Assembly: GCF_000317145.1 (NCBI RefSeq)
Contig: NC_019697.1
Span: forward strand, 5,344,886 to 5,408,885
Direction: 5' to 3'
Length of the DNA stretch: 64,000 nt
Origin: Chamaesiphon minutus PCC 6605
Lineage (GTDB): Bacteria; Cyanobacteriota; Cyanobacteriia; Cyanobacteriales; Chamaesiphonaceae
Shown: positions 4,052 to 20,157 of the stretch, piece after piece
Layout of the letters: every line of letters starts with the position of its first letter
Position numbering within the stretch: the stretch's first letter is position 1
Notes under the pieces: model-generated
Told to the model about the DNA's origin: nothing
Database searches by the model: none
Seen by the model: the letters and a program-made list of their open reading frames with translations, nothing else
Program-made: the position numbers and the translations under genes

Positions 4052-5494
4052 ATGACAGCTATTTTTACGATCGCCGATGAGTCTGAAGCGAATAATGCCA
4101 GCAGTGCCGATTTTCAATGGATGCCGCAATGGTATCCCGTCGCTGTCGTCGAATTTTTAGATCCGTCCAAACCCCATGCATTTCAACTATTGGGTAAAAA
4201 TGTCGTGTTGTGGCGAGATGGCGCGCAGCAGTGGCAATGTTTTGAGGATGCGTGTCCCCATCGCCTCGCACCGCTATCGGAAGGGCGCGTCGAAGCCGAC
4301 GGGACGCTGTTATGTGCCTACCACGGTTGGCGATTTGGTGGAGATGGTAACTGTACCAAAATCCCCCAATCCCAATCTCCAGAACTAGAAGCCCAACATC
4401 GTGCCAATCCTAAATCCTGCGCGATCTCGTATCCCACCCAACAAGCACAGGGATTATTGTGGGTGTGGGCGGAATCTGGTGCCAAAGGAGCAGTTGAGAG
4501 TAAGAATCGTTCGCCCCGAATTATTTCCGAACTCGAAGGTAAATCAGATCGCGTTGTCAAACTATTTTGGAATATTCGGGATCTGCCGTATGGGTGGGAC
4601 TATTTCATGGAAAACGTCGCCGATCCCGCTCATGTACCCGTTTCGCATCATGGATTAGTCGGAGATCGCCATCGAGATGCCAAATATTATGATATGCCCC
4701 GATTGCGCGAAATTTCGACTCAGGAGGGCTTTTCCTTCGGCGTGACGCAGGAACAGGGTTCGCCGATTCTTGACGTCTTACATGACTTCCAGCCGCCTTG
4801 TCTGATGAAAATTACGACTACCTTCACCGATGAAGGGCAGCTAATTTTAGTGCTATATGCCACCCCTACTCGCCCCGGCTGGTGTCGTCATATCGGCACG
4901 CAGATTCTAGTCAAAAATCCCCAGGGCAAATTACCACCCGGATTAGGATTTTTCGCGCTCCCGATGCCGACTTGGTTGGGACATATTCTCGCGTCGCTGT
5001 TCTTACATCAAGATATGGTCTTCCTCCATTATCAGGAACGGACGATGGCAGCCAAAGATCGCTGGTTGGATGCAGTATATACGCCCAATCCTCAGGACAA
5101 AATGACCATCACCTTCCGTCAGTGGCTCGAAAAACGGGCTGGCGGTGGCGTCCCGTGGCAAGGTACCGCCGATTTACCGCCCGCAGAACTGGATAAACGC
5201 AAACTCTTGGATGTTTGGCACACTCATACCGCCGAGTGTCAGTATTGCCAAACCGCACTCAAACGGTTGCGGTGGGCGAGAACGGGTAGTTATGGATTGG
5301 CGATCGCGATCTTGGTAGTCGCAGTTTTGCTAGAATCACGATCTATCGCATTAACAGGGCAAACAAGTCTCATTTCACTAGCTTTTGTCGCGAGAATATC
5401 GATCGCATTAGGTTTAACAGCTCTAGGCTATGGCATTCACCAGCTTATCGGCTTGTTCTATGTCTACGAGTTTGAGCACGCCCAAAATGATTAG
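4052..5494 (+). CDS. Rieske 2Fe-2S oxygenase, pheophorbide a oxygenase/Tic55/Ptc52-like
   Basis: A 480-residue Rieske non-haem iron oxygenase. The 2Fe-2S ligands are visible as Cys-Pro-His (DACPHRLAPLSEG) and CAYHGW near residues 70-95. The mononuclear iron site is the ENVADPAHVPVSHHG motif around residue 190. Near the C-terminus there is a conserved Cys-x-x-Cys (ECQYCQ) followed by two hydrophobic segments, the arrangement known in plant PAO, Tic55 and Ptc52 and their cyanobacterial relatives. It therefore probably sits at the thylakoid or inner membrane and oxidises a chlorophyll-type tetrapyrrole, but the substrate cannot be read from sequence. The start is the ATG at 4052, with two more in-frame Met codons much further in. 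Confidence 0.85.
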   Translation: MTAIFTIADESEANNASSADFQWMPQWYPVAVVEFLDPSKPHAFQLLGKNVVLWRDGAQQWQCFEDACPHRLAPLSEGRVEADGTLLCAYHGWRFGGDGNCTKIPQSQSPELEAQHRANPKSCAISYPTQQAQGLLWVWAESGAKGAVESKNRSPRIISELEGKSDRVVKLFWNIRDLPYGWDYFMENVADPAHVPVSHHGLVGDRHRDAKYYDMPRLREISTQEGFSFGVTQEQGSPILDVLHDFQPPCLMKITTTFTDEGQLILVLYATPTRPGWCRHIGTQILVKNPQGKLPPGLGFFALPMPTWLGHILASLFLHQDMVFLHYQERTMAAKDRWLDAVYTPNPQDKMTITFRQWLEKRAGGGVPWQGTADLPPAELDKRKLLDVWHTHTAECQYCQTALKRLRWARTGSYGLAIAILVVAVLLESRSIALTGQTSLISLAFVARISIALGLTALGYGIHQLIGLFYVYEFEHAQND

Positions 5495-15570: not shown

Positions 15571-15975
15571 TTTTGTCTAAAACATCTCCAAATTAAGATC
15601 GTCAGCTTCAATAAGCTTACCACGCTCCTGGGATCGAAAACGAGGGAGACGATCGAGAGATAGATCGTAAATCTTATGTAATTAGAGGCTTAGTTAAGTG
15701 CAAGTTTTGCTAAATGAGAATAAGATATTTTTACTATCTTTTATCATTATGATATTTGTTGGGATGGATGCAATGTGTTTTTTAGCAATTAATGCACTAT
15801 ATCTGCTACCATTTTACATCGTTTCTACTGGAGTCTTCTGGTTGCTAGAATCGATCGGGTCGCTCGGATAACCCAAAAATATCGGTTGGATAGCCGCTTG
15901 GCGGAAATCGATCCTTTACAAGGGCGATCGGTCGGAGGGAAAATAGAGAGTCAGCATCAACGAGGATATAGCAAC

Positions 15976-17409
15976 GTGAGCGAACAATTTGACTACGATT
16001 TGGTAATTATCGGCGCGGGTGTAGGCGGACATGGTGCCGCGCTCCACGCTGTCAGTTGCGGTCTGAAGACAGCGATCGTCGAAGCGGGAGATATGGGTGG
16101 TACCTGTGTCAATCGCGGTTGTATCCCCTCCAAGGCACTCCTCGCCGCTTCGGGTAGAGTCCGCGAAATGCGGAATGCGCACCATCTTAAGGCGATGGGG
16201 ATTCAGGTAGATAATGTCAATTTCGATCGCGAAGGCATTGCCGCTCATGCGAGCAATCTTGTCTCGAAGCTGCGCGGCGACTTGACAAATAGTTTGACAC
16301 GTTTGAATGTCGAAGTGATTCGCGGCTGGGGTAAAGTGGTTGCCAGTCAAAAAATCAGCGTGACGACACCTGAAGGTGAGAAATTTATTACTGCCAAAGA
16401 TGTGATGATTTCTTCCGGTTCGATTCCCTTTGTCCCTCCTGGAATTGAAGTCGATGGTAAAACGGTATTTACTAGTGACGATGCGATTAAATTAGAAACC
16501 TTGCCCCAATGGATCGCGATTATCGGTAGCGGCTACATCGGGTTGGAATTTTCTGATGTCTATACCGCATTGGGTTCGGAAGTGACGATGATTGAATTCT
16601 TCGACCAATTGATGCCGGGATTCGATACCGATATTGCCAAACTAGCCAAACGGATTTTAATCGATCCGCGCGATATCGACGCTCGCCCCAGCCTGCTCGC
16701 CAAACGGGTCATCCCTGGTTCGCCAGTCGTCATCGAACTCGCCGACGCGAAAACTAAAGAAGTCGTCGAAATCTTAGAGGTCGATGCCTGCCTCGTCGCG
16801 ACGGGTCGGATTCCCGATACCAAAAACCTTAATTTAGAAGCTGTTGGGGTCGCCCTCGACCGCCGAGGCTTCATTCCGGTGAACGATCGGCTAGAGGTCT
16901 TAATCGACGACAAACCCGTTCCCCACCTATGGGCGATCGGCGATGCGACGGGTAAAATGATGTTGGCTCACGCCGCCTCCGCTCAAGGGATTATCGCTGT
17001 CGAAAATATCTGCGGTCGATCGAAAGAAGTCGATTATCAAAGTATCCCCGCTGCTGCATTTACCCATCCCGAAATTAGCTTTGTGGGGATGACGGAAGCC
17101 CAAGCCAAGGAAGCGGCTACTGCTGGCGGATTTGAGATCGCAGCGGTAAGAAGTTATTTTAAAGGTAACTCTAAAGCGATCGCTGAAGGTGAAGCCGACG
17201 GCATGGCGAAGGTGATTTATCGTAAGGATACTGGCGAAGTATTGGGTACCCACATTATCGGGTTGCACGCGGCGGATCTGATTCATGAAGCGTCTAATGC
17301 GATCGCGCAACGCAATTCGATCCATAATCTAGCCACCTACGTTCACGCTCATCCTACTCTGTCTGAGGTATTGGATGAAGCTTACAAACGTGCTGCTGGG
17401 GTTCACTAA
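15976..17409 (+). CDS. lpdA: Dihydrolipoamide dehydrogenase (E3)
   Basis: A 477-residue FAD-disulfide oxidoreductase. From the N-terminus: FAD-binding [13 protein letters not shown], redox-active pair in [16 protein letters not shown]-binding GSGYIGLEF, second FAD motif [10 protein letters not shown], and the C-terminal active-site His-Glu in [13 protein letters not shown]. It regenerates oxidised lipoyl groups for the pyruvate dehydrogenase and glycine cleavage complexes. I choose the GTG at 15976 ([13 protein letters not shown]), which has GAGG about 10 bp upstream; the in-frame ATG at 15886 would add 30 residues unlike the family. Confidence 0.95.
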
Positions 17410-17696: not shown

Positions 17697-18641
17697 GTGA
17701 CCGAAGAGGAATTAGAGAAAATAATCGAGCAGGTGAGGGTAGATTGAGTCTCTGAACTAGATTTGAGCTATAAACAACTCACTCGACTACCCGATAGCAT
17801 TGGAAATATTTATACTCTTACAAGCTTAAACATAACTGGGAATAAACTCACTCAATTACCGGATAGTATCGGCAAACTGACTAAATTAGATACACTAAAT
17901 GTCACGGATAATTGGCTTAGTAGTATACCAGAAAATATCGGTAATCTCACCCGCTTGATTAGACTATCTTTTGAAGATAATCATCTCATGTATTTACCGG
18001 AGAGTATTGACAGTCTTACTAACCTAGCTTATCTATATTTAGGGACTAACTCTCTTACATATCTACCAGAGAGTATTGGCAATCTTAAAAATTTAATATG
18101 GTTACACTTAGGCTGTAACTCTCTCAATCGCATACCAGATAGTTTTGGTAATTTTTACAACCTTGTTGACTTAGGTCTATAGGAAAACAATCTTAGTAGT
18201 TTACCAAAGAGTGTTGTCAATCTTTCCAATCTAGGCTCAATCAGCTTAGATTTGAATCTAATTTTTAATGTGGTAGTTGTACAAGCACTACCAAAACTTA
18301 AAGAAGTCAGCTTTTTATATCTAGATCTCCCCAATAGATATTGGACTAATTCGAGTGAACGGTATCCCAAATGGTTGTTAGATGAAGAAAATGCTGAAAT
18401 CAGACGAGTATTAATTCAACAAATTGGTTACGATCGAATCTGTCAGGAACTAGACGCGATCGATCTTGACACTTGGCGAGAATATAACTTGCTCAAAATC
18501 GATGCCTATATTGAGGATGAGCCGATGGTATTGCTCAAGATGACTTGTCCCTCGACGGGACATATTCATATCCTGCGCGTACCGCCAGAAATGACTAATG
18601 CCGAAGCCGCAATTACTTGGGTAAATCATGGCATCCATTAG
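17697..18641 (+). pseudogene. Leucine-rich-repeat protein gene with two in-frame stops
   Basis: One frame runs from GTG 17697 (VTEEELEKIIEQ, with GGAGG upstream) to 18641 but is cut by TGA at 17745-17747 and TAG at 18180-18182. Reading through both gives a continuous protein: about eight 23-residue leucine-rich repeats of LPDSIGNLTNL type, then a C-terminal region (IRRVLIQQIGYDRICQEL...) like that of cyanobacterial LRR proteins. The natural end has been replaced: the last residues WVNHGIH run into a stop, and a matching piece that completes the tail lies 650 bp downstream, after the toxin-antitoxin genes. Most likely a decayed gene; the conserved frame suggests the stops are recent. Confidence 0.7.
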
Positions 18642-18871
18642 AAGAGTGGTACCAAACTATCAAGCAAGCAGAATGGCGTAGCTTAGATAATGTGCGACAA
18701 ATCTACCGTAGTGCCGATGCAGTGGGGAATTTTACAGTATTTAATATCAAAGGTAATAATTATCGTCTAATTGTAGGAATCGATTATGAAGACATGACAA
18801 TTTACTATAAATACTTGTTGACTCATACCGAATATGATCAGGAGAAGTGGAAAAATGACCCTTACTTTTGA
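18617..18871 (+). CDS. HigB-like toxin, N-terminally truncated
   Basis: An 84-residue product, read from TTG 18617, that matches the HigB mRNA interferase family over its body: LEEWYQTIKQAEWRSLDNVR, YRSADAV, then FNIKGNNYRLIVGIDYE and the THTEYDQ segment near the end. The usual first 12-20 residues (a start like MRVIxxxxLxxFW) are missing, because the DNA upstream is the end of the LRR gene. It is unclear whether it is translated or active. It overlaps the antitoxin gene by 17 bp, the usual HigBA order. Confidence 0.65.
   Translation: MGKSWHPLEEWYQTIKQAEWRSLDNVRQIYRSADAVGNFTVFNIKGNNYRLIVGIDYEDMTIYYKYLLTHTEYDQEKWKNDPYF
18619..18639. repeat. Left copy of a ~20-bp repeat flanking the toxin-antitoxin pair
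   Basis: GGGTAAATCATGGCATCCAT at 18619-18638 recurs at 19292-19311 with one mismatch. In the left copy it codes for WVNHGIH of the LRR protein. Confidence 0.85.
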
Positions 18872-19253
18872 CGATAGAACTTACAACAATCTGCTGGCAG
18901 AGATTAGCCCTAAAGTTATCGAAACAGAAGCAGAATACGATCGAGCGTTGGCAATTGCCGAACGGCTGACATTTACCAAGAATAAAACACCAGAAGAGAG
19001 AGCTGTTTATCGCTTATTAGTAGTACTAATCGAAGCGTATGAAAGCGAACATTATGCCTTGCCTGTAGCGAAGCCTCATGAAATACTTCAGCATATTATG
19101 GAAGCTAGCGGTACTTGCCAATCGGATTTAGTGAAGATTGTGGGTTCGAGTAGTGTCGTATCGGAGATCGTTAATGGCAAGCTAGCTATTAGCAAAGCCC
19201 AAGCGAAAATTTTAGGAGATTTATTTAAGGTATCTCCTAGTTTATTTATTTAA
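18855..19253 (+). CDS. HigA-like antitoxin with XRE helix-turn-helix
   Basis: A 132-residue protein. The N-terminal half is charged and helical (SPKVIETEAEYDRALAIAERL), and the C-terminal half is an XRE-type helix-turn-helix (residues about 75-130: HEILQHIMEAS, QSDLVKIVGSSSVVSEIVNG, KAQAKILGDLFKVSPSLFI). This is the layout of HigA antitoxins that follow HigB toxins. I choose the ATG at 18855, 17 bp inside the toxin gene, over the upstream alternative at 18834. It should neutralise the toxin and repress the pair. Confidence 0.8.
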   Translation: MTLTFDDRTYNNLLAEISPKVIETEAEYDRALAIAERLTFTKNKTPEERAVYRLLVVLIEAYESEHYALPVAKPHEILQHIMEASGTCQSDLVKIVGSSSVVSEIVNGKLAISKAQAKILGDLFKVSPSLFI

Positions 19254-19285
19254 CATCTTTCGATATTAGAGAGTTAGCTCGAAGC

Positions 19286-19338
19286 TCGCATGGGTAAATC
19301 ATGGCATTCATGCCGACAAATTTAGCGTGCAGACTTGA
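19286..19338 (+). pseudogene. Detached 3' end of the LRR gene
   Basis: The 20-bp repeat at 19292-19311 is followed by codons reading WVNHGIHADKFSVQT and TGA (19336-19338). This completes the C-terminus that the LRR gene at 17697-18641 lacks. The preceding bases (GAAGCTCGCA) also resemble those before the left copy (GAAGCCGCAATTACTT). Confidence 0.65.
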
Positions 19339-19394
19339 TGCTATCTTGGCTCGTTCCAGTATCGCCCACAATTGAAATCAGGGCTAGTGTTACG

Positions 19395-19445
19395 AAGTCC
19401 GCCTGCGCAGACTAATCAATTTATTTAGTCCGCGCAGGCGGACTT
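19395..19445. repeat. Long hairpin with 21-bp arms
   Basis: Arms 19395-19415 and 19425-19445 (AAGTCCGCCTGCGC...) pair at 20 of 21 positions around a 9-nt AT-rich loop. A weaker relative (AGTCCACTTCAGTGGACT) is at about 17467. It is an intergenic repeat of a type frequent in cyanobacteria and could also act as a terminator. The rest of 19339-19575 shows no gene. Confidence 0.7.
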
Positions 19446-19575
19446 TGCATCACCAGCCGAGACTTCAGTCTCCAGGCAACCGCGCCTCTAGTCCTATTAA
19501 AATTGTTAAATCGATCGCCTTCCAGAGGTAATGCCGCTAGAATAGAAGAGGTAACCTTATCGCCAAAAATCGAAC

Positions 19576-20157
19576 GTGCGCGCAAAGATTCTCGCCTGGT
19601 TGAATGAAAACGTCCCTCCTAAACGAATCCAGCATATACTAGGAGTGGAACGGATGGCGATCGAGCTTGCCACACATTACCAGCTAGATGCAGACATCGC
19701 CGCCCAAGCCGGATTGATGCACGATTTGGCCAAATATTTCAAACCCCAACGTTTATTAGAACTCGCACGAGCCGAAGGACTACCGATCGATGAAGTGGAT
19801 ATAGCCGCCCCACACTTATTACATGCCGATGTCAGCGCGATTGTCGCGCGGGACGAGTTTGGCATCACCAATCCCGAAATTCTCCAAGCGATCGCCGATC
19901 ATACCTTGGGCAGGCCAGGAATGGGTGCGATGAGTTGTATCGTGTTTTTAGCCGATACGCTCGAAGCCGGACGCGGCGATACGCCAGAATTAGAAGCTCT
20001 ACGTCAACTCAGTTATCAAGATTTACATCGAGCTGTCTGGCATACCTGTGACTATTCACTCAAATATTTGCTATCTACCCGTTGTCTCATCCATCCCCGC
20101 ACCATTCGTACCCGCAATTGGGCGATGACGATGAGTCATGCAGCAGTTGTGACTTGA
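19576..20157 (+). CDS. yqeK: HD-domain hydrolase YqeK (symmetrical Ap4A hydrolase type)
   Basis: A 193-residue HD-domain protein with the metal-binding His-Asp in AGLMHDLAKYF (near residues 50-60), an upstream His in RIQHILGVERMA, and downstream DHTLGRPGMGAMSCIVFLADTLE. YqeK proteins hydrolyse Ap4A to ADP. It starts at GTG 19576. It is followed 95 bp later by rsfS; yqeK and rsfS are neighbours in many bacteria. Confidence 0.88.
   Translation: MRAKILAWLNENVPPKRIQHILGVERMAIELATHYQLDADIAAQAGLMHDLAKYFKPQRLLELARAEGLPIDEVDIAAPHLLHADVSAIVARDEFGITNPEILQAIADHTLGRPGMGAMSCIVFLADTLEAGRGDTPELEALRQLSYQDLHRAVWHTCDYSLKYLLSTRCLIHPRTIRTRNWAMTMSHAAVVT

Follow-up and report, generated by a model that had tools for sequence, protein, structure and literature searches.

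Probable capture of a HigBA-type toxin-antitoxin pair in the 3' end of an LRR/DUF6745 gene of Chamaesiphon minutus, with duplication of the target

Toxin-antitoxin (TA) pairs have a patchy distribution and are clearly mobile, and the entry of single pairs into genomes outside plasmids, phages and integrons is poorly understood. The locus described here raises the question of how such a pair came to lie inside the 3' end of an LRR gene of the cyanobacterium Chamaesiphon minutus PCC 6605. The whole stretch of 64,000 nucleotides that was analysed (NC_019697.1, positions 5,344,886 to 5,408,885) is called the window. Scars of this type, read against empty sites in relatives, make TA entry measurable, as the target, the duplication length and the joins are all readable. 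Genomes are designated below by G numbers, with G000 for the window's own genome, and loci by L numbers. The relevant features, in window coordinates, are the following.

15886-17409, plus strand: lpdA, dihydrolipoyl dehydrogenase (TIGR01350, E 2.3e-129), left neighbour
17697-19338, plus strand: LRR/DUF6745 gene, whole, including its displaced tail, split by the insert
17697-18638, plus strand: left part of the LRR/DUF6745 gene (LRR_14, E 4e-22; DUF6745, E 3e-11)
18617-18871, plus strand: higB-like toxin open reading frame, 5'-truncated (HigB_toxin PF09907, E 1.2e-31; solved HigB chains; PADLOC PD-Lambda-2_A)
18618-18638, plus strand: left copy of the 21-bp direct repeat, TGGGTAAATCATGGCATCCAT, the LRR-tail codons WVNHGIH
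18639-19290, plus strand: 652-bp insert, missing from orthologues and paralogues sharing the same 3' end
18855-19253, plus strand: higA-like antitoxin, full length (HigA 5ifg_B, E 3.2e-06, residues 22-132; PD-Lambda-2_B, E 7.1e-18)
19291-19311, plus strand: right copy of the 21-bp direct repeat, TGGGTAAATCATGGCATTCAT, running on into ADKFSVQT
19312-19338, plus strand: displaced LRR tail, ADKFSVQT and stop TGA, in frame after the right copy
19576-20157, plus strand: yqeK (TIGR00488, E 9.5e-54), right neighbour and anchor of the locus in relatives

The two copies of the LRR 3' end differ by one mismatch, as a preliminary description of this DNA had stated, and are 21 bp long rather than the 20 bp given there. 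Its account of the host frame was accurate: the LRR read-through ends in ...AAITWVNHGIH and meets a TAG at 18639, and the codons that complete the gene follow the right copy. Two further in-frame stops, at 17745 and 18180 in the frame read from GTG 17697, had been overlooked; because of them the LRR host gene is a pseudogene even with the insertion left out of account. The repeat is the sole exact 16-mer pair spaced 100-1000 bp within the 64-kb window, the remaining exact 16-mer pairs less than 1 kb apart being short repeats, closely spaced. The left copy may consist of 17 identical bases followed by the start of higB (CCA TTA, Pro-Leu). Its sole mismatch sits where a CCA codon would give proline, and the homologues at L022 and L028 have a proline just ahead of the conserved aromatic WY stretch.

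The toxin frame, which the preliminary description had begun inside the left copy, opens at TTG 18617, one base ahead of it, and takes its first seven codons from LRR DNA in a different reading frame. Similarity to HigB starts at the junction. The toxin N-terminus, already noted as missing, lacks about 21 residues in an alignment with seven full-length homologues, and the two PADLOC profiles with the best scores are matched from position 20 of 97 and from position 21 of 94 onwards. We infer that this part was lost either at insertion or through a later deletion. The start of higA overlaps the 3' end of the toxin gene, and no Pfam family was found in the antitoxin. In toxin family, toxin-then-antitoxin order, gene overlap and HigA-like antitoxin the cassette resembles HigBA/PF09907-type pairs (5ifg, 5ycl; PADLOC PD-Lambda-2 A and B), from which it differs by its shortened toxin opening in foreign sequence. 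Judged from its truncation the toxin is probably inactive, so that the TA cassette in the window would be a relic. With a toxin that is probably dead and a host gene that is a pseudogene, the interest of the locus is in the general pattern and not in the window copy.

No transposase or integrase was found in the 652-bp insert, where higB and higA are the sole recognised genes, no inverted repeat was found at its ends, and the scanned neighbours lpdA and yqeK held no integrase either. The insert is thus unlike an insertion sequence or composite transposon, which would bring a transposase and terminal inverted repeats. Nothing near-identical to the insert was present in the own genome or, by DNA search, in ten relatives; the best HigB loci retrieved share about 70% DNA identity with it across most of its length, and short pieces reach at most 78%.

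DUF6745 forms the C-terminal part of the LRR gene between lpdA and yqeK. The last 100-120 bp of this gene match paralogues in the own genome at 74-88%, and these paralogues run through the 21 bp into the LRR tail with no break. Orthologous positions give the same picture: G007 has beside lpdA an intact LRR gene of 404 aa with one 21-bp copy, G005 encodes there a protein of 339 aa that shares the DUF6745 C-terminus, again with one copy, and in G006 yqeK follows lpdA directly, with no LRR gene between. The 21 bp thus occur once in L052/L142, L097 and the paralogues, and twice in the window. As the sites in G005 and G007 are uninterrupted and single-copy, the TA pair was inserted into a pre-existing gene, the direction of change being inferred from these sites; this is the cassette insertion that the preliminary description had offered as one of two readings. 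In the nearest relative at the DNA level (G003, Chamaesiphon polymorphus CCALA 037, 93% beside yqeK) the contig stops some 100 bp to the right of the LRR tail (window position about 19436). At the orthologous locus of G005 (L142:6363-7382, minus strand) the DUF6745 C-terminus is kept and the N-terminal part is without an LRR match, as though domains had been shuffled around a common 3' end.

We consider it probable that a HigBA-type pair was captured in the LRR/DUF6745 3' end with duplication of the target, and that this is one case of a recurrent event involving several TA families. The observations behind this reading are an insert free of mobility genes and inverted ends, the duplicated 21 bp around it, empty sites with a single copy, and the enrichment of flanking repeats at TA loci presented below. 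In such an event a small linear DNA carrying the pair would enter the LRR/DUF6745 3' end, and a short stretch of the target would be copied on both sides of the cargo. The joining step would most likely have been illegitimate joining or template switching where the DNA was broken or a fork had stalled, the recipient end being copied a second time from a point upstream of the break. A possible route of insertion is recombination at a short homology, as proposed in the preliminary description. TA pairs elsewhere may persist because their loss is punished. It counts against capture with target duplication that the 21 bp are fewer than the order of 100 bp known for restriction-modification (RM) systems, and that a simple cassette insertion leaves the truncation of the toxin unexplained.

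A second case came from the own genome. A sequence model of the LRR tail (cut-off E <= 1e-4) located 11 tail loci there, three of which (the window, L130 and L131) have two copies less than 1 kb apart. The preliminary description had proposed a search for other TA pairs between copies of the LRR 3' end, and L130 is one: a Phd_YefM antitoxin (E 1.4e-9) and a ParE toxin (E 8e-12) lie between two LRR 3' ends, with the 50-bp tail copies at 4104-4153 and 4855-4904. Its empty-site evidence consists of paralogues only. Six toxin and antitoxin queries found matches in 3 of 30 LRR-tail loci (L130, L142 and L182), and since TA genes are present at so few of them, a position exactly between two tails is not background. 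L131 was rejected as a TA case, as the 176 bp between its tails are without an open reading frame and hold, by eye, an LRR-like unit; these two LRR 3' ends (L131:3601-3870, minus strand) are placed between menD and a phosphoketolase-like gene.

The right copies of L130 and of the window begin at the identical base, and the left copy of L130 is a complete LRR tail. This fits a history in two steps, where an intact HigBA pair would have been inserted with a duplication of about 50 bp from the same TGGGTAAAT, and a later deletion would have fused the LRR end to about codon 22 of higB, leaving 21 bp of the left copy. Such a history would account for the missing toxin start. It needs, however, an extra event that must end inside the duplicated segment, and no intermediate was found; we therefore hold it as a tentative possibility, deserving serious attention without being our preferred account.

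Insertion with target duplication is not confined to LRR genes. A third case is that of G005, where the complete lpdA is followed by a Gp49 toxin with its HTH antitoxin and then by an orphan copy of the final 112 bp of lpdA. The lpdA 3' end is single-copy in G000, G004 and G006, and the G005 sequence past the orphan copy is collinear with the downstream region of the window's own lpdA in G000. The two G005 copies are identical over their first 69 bp, and four coding differences follow, all in the last part; at all four sites the left copy agrees with G006. In G007 the 112-bp lpdA end occurs once at full length, and a further fragment of about 60 bp is found after an LRR gene and a Uma2 gene (L097:5120-5883), as if these two genes were the cargo of an earlier insertion at lpdA.

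The G005 arrangement of complete gene end, cargo and orphan gene end would also be the product of homology-facilitated illegitimate recombination, in which DNA of a relative, with a TA pair beside the homologous gene end, recombines on one side and is joined illegitimately on the other. The run of 69 identical bp followed by four differences, with the left copy in agreement with G006, is compatible with this. Excerpts of PMC3240628 describe the process in competent bacteria and in E. coli conjugation, and to the extent of these excerpts it resembles our cases in moving cargo without a mobile element and in being able to duplicate a gene end. For this process the incoming DNA must be anchored by homology. 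No such anchor is visible in the window, whose two joins fall within the duplicated stretch, neither of them forming a seamless end of a gene. Moreover, four differences are few sites and no donor sequence was found. We regard this recombination as rather unlikely overall, though for lpdA it is an alternative to be reckoned with.

A fourth case of insertion with target duplication is seen in G006, where a Phd-ParE pair lies upstream of the phosphoketolase-like gene (XFP), between copies of 36 bp. This target is single-copy in G000, G002, G003 and G004. G007 has at least part of the G006 insertion in common, the alignments of G001, G008, G009 and G010 stop short of the site, and no match was obtained in G005. 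About 90 bp past the second copy of the 36-bp target lies a third, partial one (L196:1801-1957), which suggests that insertion at this spot was repeated. The duplications in the three next-best cases are thus 36, 50 and 112-113 bp long.

Three of the cargo insertions (window, L130 and G005 lpdA) are at gene 3' ends, and the start base shared by the right-hand LRR copies could be taken as a sign of a site-specific element, whose trans-acting integrase would put TA cassettes at gene-end attachment sites, the repeats being att cores. This is improbable and was set low because the LRR end, the lpdA end and the phosphoketolase-like upstream site have by eye no common sequence; repeat lengths that vary from 21 to 113 bp, and a window insert with neither integrase nor inverted core, also speak against it. 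Slightly less probable still is the other reading of the preliminary description, a collapse of tandem LRR genes, in which the TA pair would once have stood between two such genes, later reduced by deletions to one body and one tail. The numerous LRR-type paralogues, represented by the 11 tail loci, and the two decayed tails in tandem at L131 would lend themselves to it. At the locus itself it is unsupported, as relatives have there a single such gene (G005, G007) or none (G006); it would need two independent deletions ending in the same 21 bp, and it leaves the lpdA and phosphoketolase-like cases unaccounted for. Finally, a chance match of the repeat, or an LRR gene and TA pair that are unlinked, can be dismissed for practical purposes, since single-copy intact homologues span the junction and the window has no comparable spaced repeat.

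In order to see how often TA loci are flanked in this way, each locus was scored by the best direct repeat between its 1.5-kb flanks, with the index case left out. Loci of at least 34 bits were counted as positive, a threshold that is post hoc, having been chosen with the scores of the index case (34.6) and of the window control maximum (31.0) at hand. Flanking direct repeats were found at 21 of 96 toxin loci (HigB 12/62, ParE 7/22, Gp49 2/12) and at one of 61 gene controls (Uma2 1/25, GNAT 0/26, yqeK 0/10), the sole positive Uma2 control being two adjacent Uma2 genes. Random positions in the own genome were positive in 14 of 480 cases, several of them coding repeats by eye, and the window control, with the LRR region excluded, gave 0/111. 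The Fisher p value for the toxin loci is 1.3e-4 against gene controls and 2e-9 against random positions. An earlier pass of the screen had given 15 positives among 62 toxin loci.

The samples differ in origin. HigB loci were drawn from 60 genomes of the order, and ParE, Gp49, Uma2 and GNAT loci from six of the genus. The HigB set is partial, comprising 29 non-index loci and 40 picked lower in a longer match ranking; the ParE set represents 30 of 35 listed matches, and the Uma2 and GNAT sets the best 30 each of much longer lists. Loci with incomplete flanks were skipped (7 HigB, 8 ParE, 6 Gp49, 5 Uma2, 4 GNAT and 5 yqeK).

Six of the positives are doubtful. L030, L204 and L335 are flanked by dispersed repeats recurring in other loci, L342 has a repetitive flank with 29 matches within its own locus, L326 is a gene-length duplication of 795 bp, and L352 was judged doubtful by eye only. 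When these are dropped the comparison becomes 15/96 against 1/61 (p 0.003), and when the eleven positives with a cargo below 1 kb are taken it is 11/96 against 1/61 (p 0.02). Two positives, L213 and L219, lie next to each other on the same contig and are not independent. Clean empty sites confirm two of the 21 positives, those at lpdA and at the phosphoketolase-like gene. A coincidental repeat, the possibility considered in the preliminary description, is refuted by the empty sites.

The pattern has a precedent in RM systems. The original papers on RM insertion with long and variable target duplication are reportedly those of Nobusato 2000 and Furuta 2010. According to the excerpts of later papers, the insertion of RM systems produces target duplications that are long, of the order of 100 bp, and variable (PMC3874152, with the same pattern restated in PMC3031569), the long-target-duplication pattern is often associated with RM genes in Helicobacter pylori (PMC1643837), and one RM case has a target duplication of 4 bp (PMC10273834). 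The remark in the preliminary description that no mechanism moving TA cassettes in this way had been described therefore does not extend to RM systems; it stands for TA pairs, in that the excerpts retrieved on target duplication together with toxin-antitoxin contained no report of such an insertion. As far as the excerpts on RM insertions go, the likeness lies in a selfish addictive gene pair facing an empty site, in flanking direct copies of the target that vary in length, and in a tie to no known mobile element. The differences are the cargo, a TA pair (HigBA in the window), the cyanobacterial host, and duplications of 21 to 113 bp as compared with the order of 100 bp in the excerpted accounts. 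TA cassettes of super-integrons, as depicted in the excerpt of PMC2654758, are likewise small and gained one by one, but, going by that excerpt, they differ from our insert, which is without an end inverted repeat or integrase and whose repeats are host-gene copies.

By this analogy the window event probably works like an RM insertion with long target duplication, and the insertion of a TA pair with target duplication is best read as a new form of a pattern already known for RM systems. The same signature in both would suggest a common route for addictive gene pairs, and the scars in related cyanobacteria hint at movement of TA pairs without a known transposon. A wider proposition would be that cyanobacterial TA pairs are small mobile units which share with RM systems an element-free insertion route that leaves long target duplications of variable length, and which dock repeatedly at conserved gene 3' ends, with the multicopy LRR/DUF6745 tail among them, where the cut would fall at a preferred base (TGGGTAAAT); we put this forward as speculation, unlikely to hold in full.

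Some further observations concern repeats in the vicinity of these loci. Among the positives of the screen, L218 and L209 were set aside as clean cases, both being complex on comparison. In L218 (1263-2223, G007) a ParE-type TA pair lies upstream of rpsL between two copies of one sequence, which elsewhere is found at the 5' end of Uma2 genes and which occurs near rpsL in G001 and G006 too. In G002 an orphan LRR tail (L179:3223-3300) is broken by about 22 bp that by eye resemble a dispersed TTGGCGTAGC sequence. Directly after the LRR tail of the window there is a palindromic repeat (19343-19480, with arms at 19373-19415 and 19425-19467), which belongs to a dispersed family matched many times in Chamaesiphon genomes.
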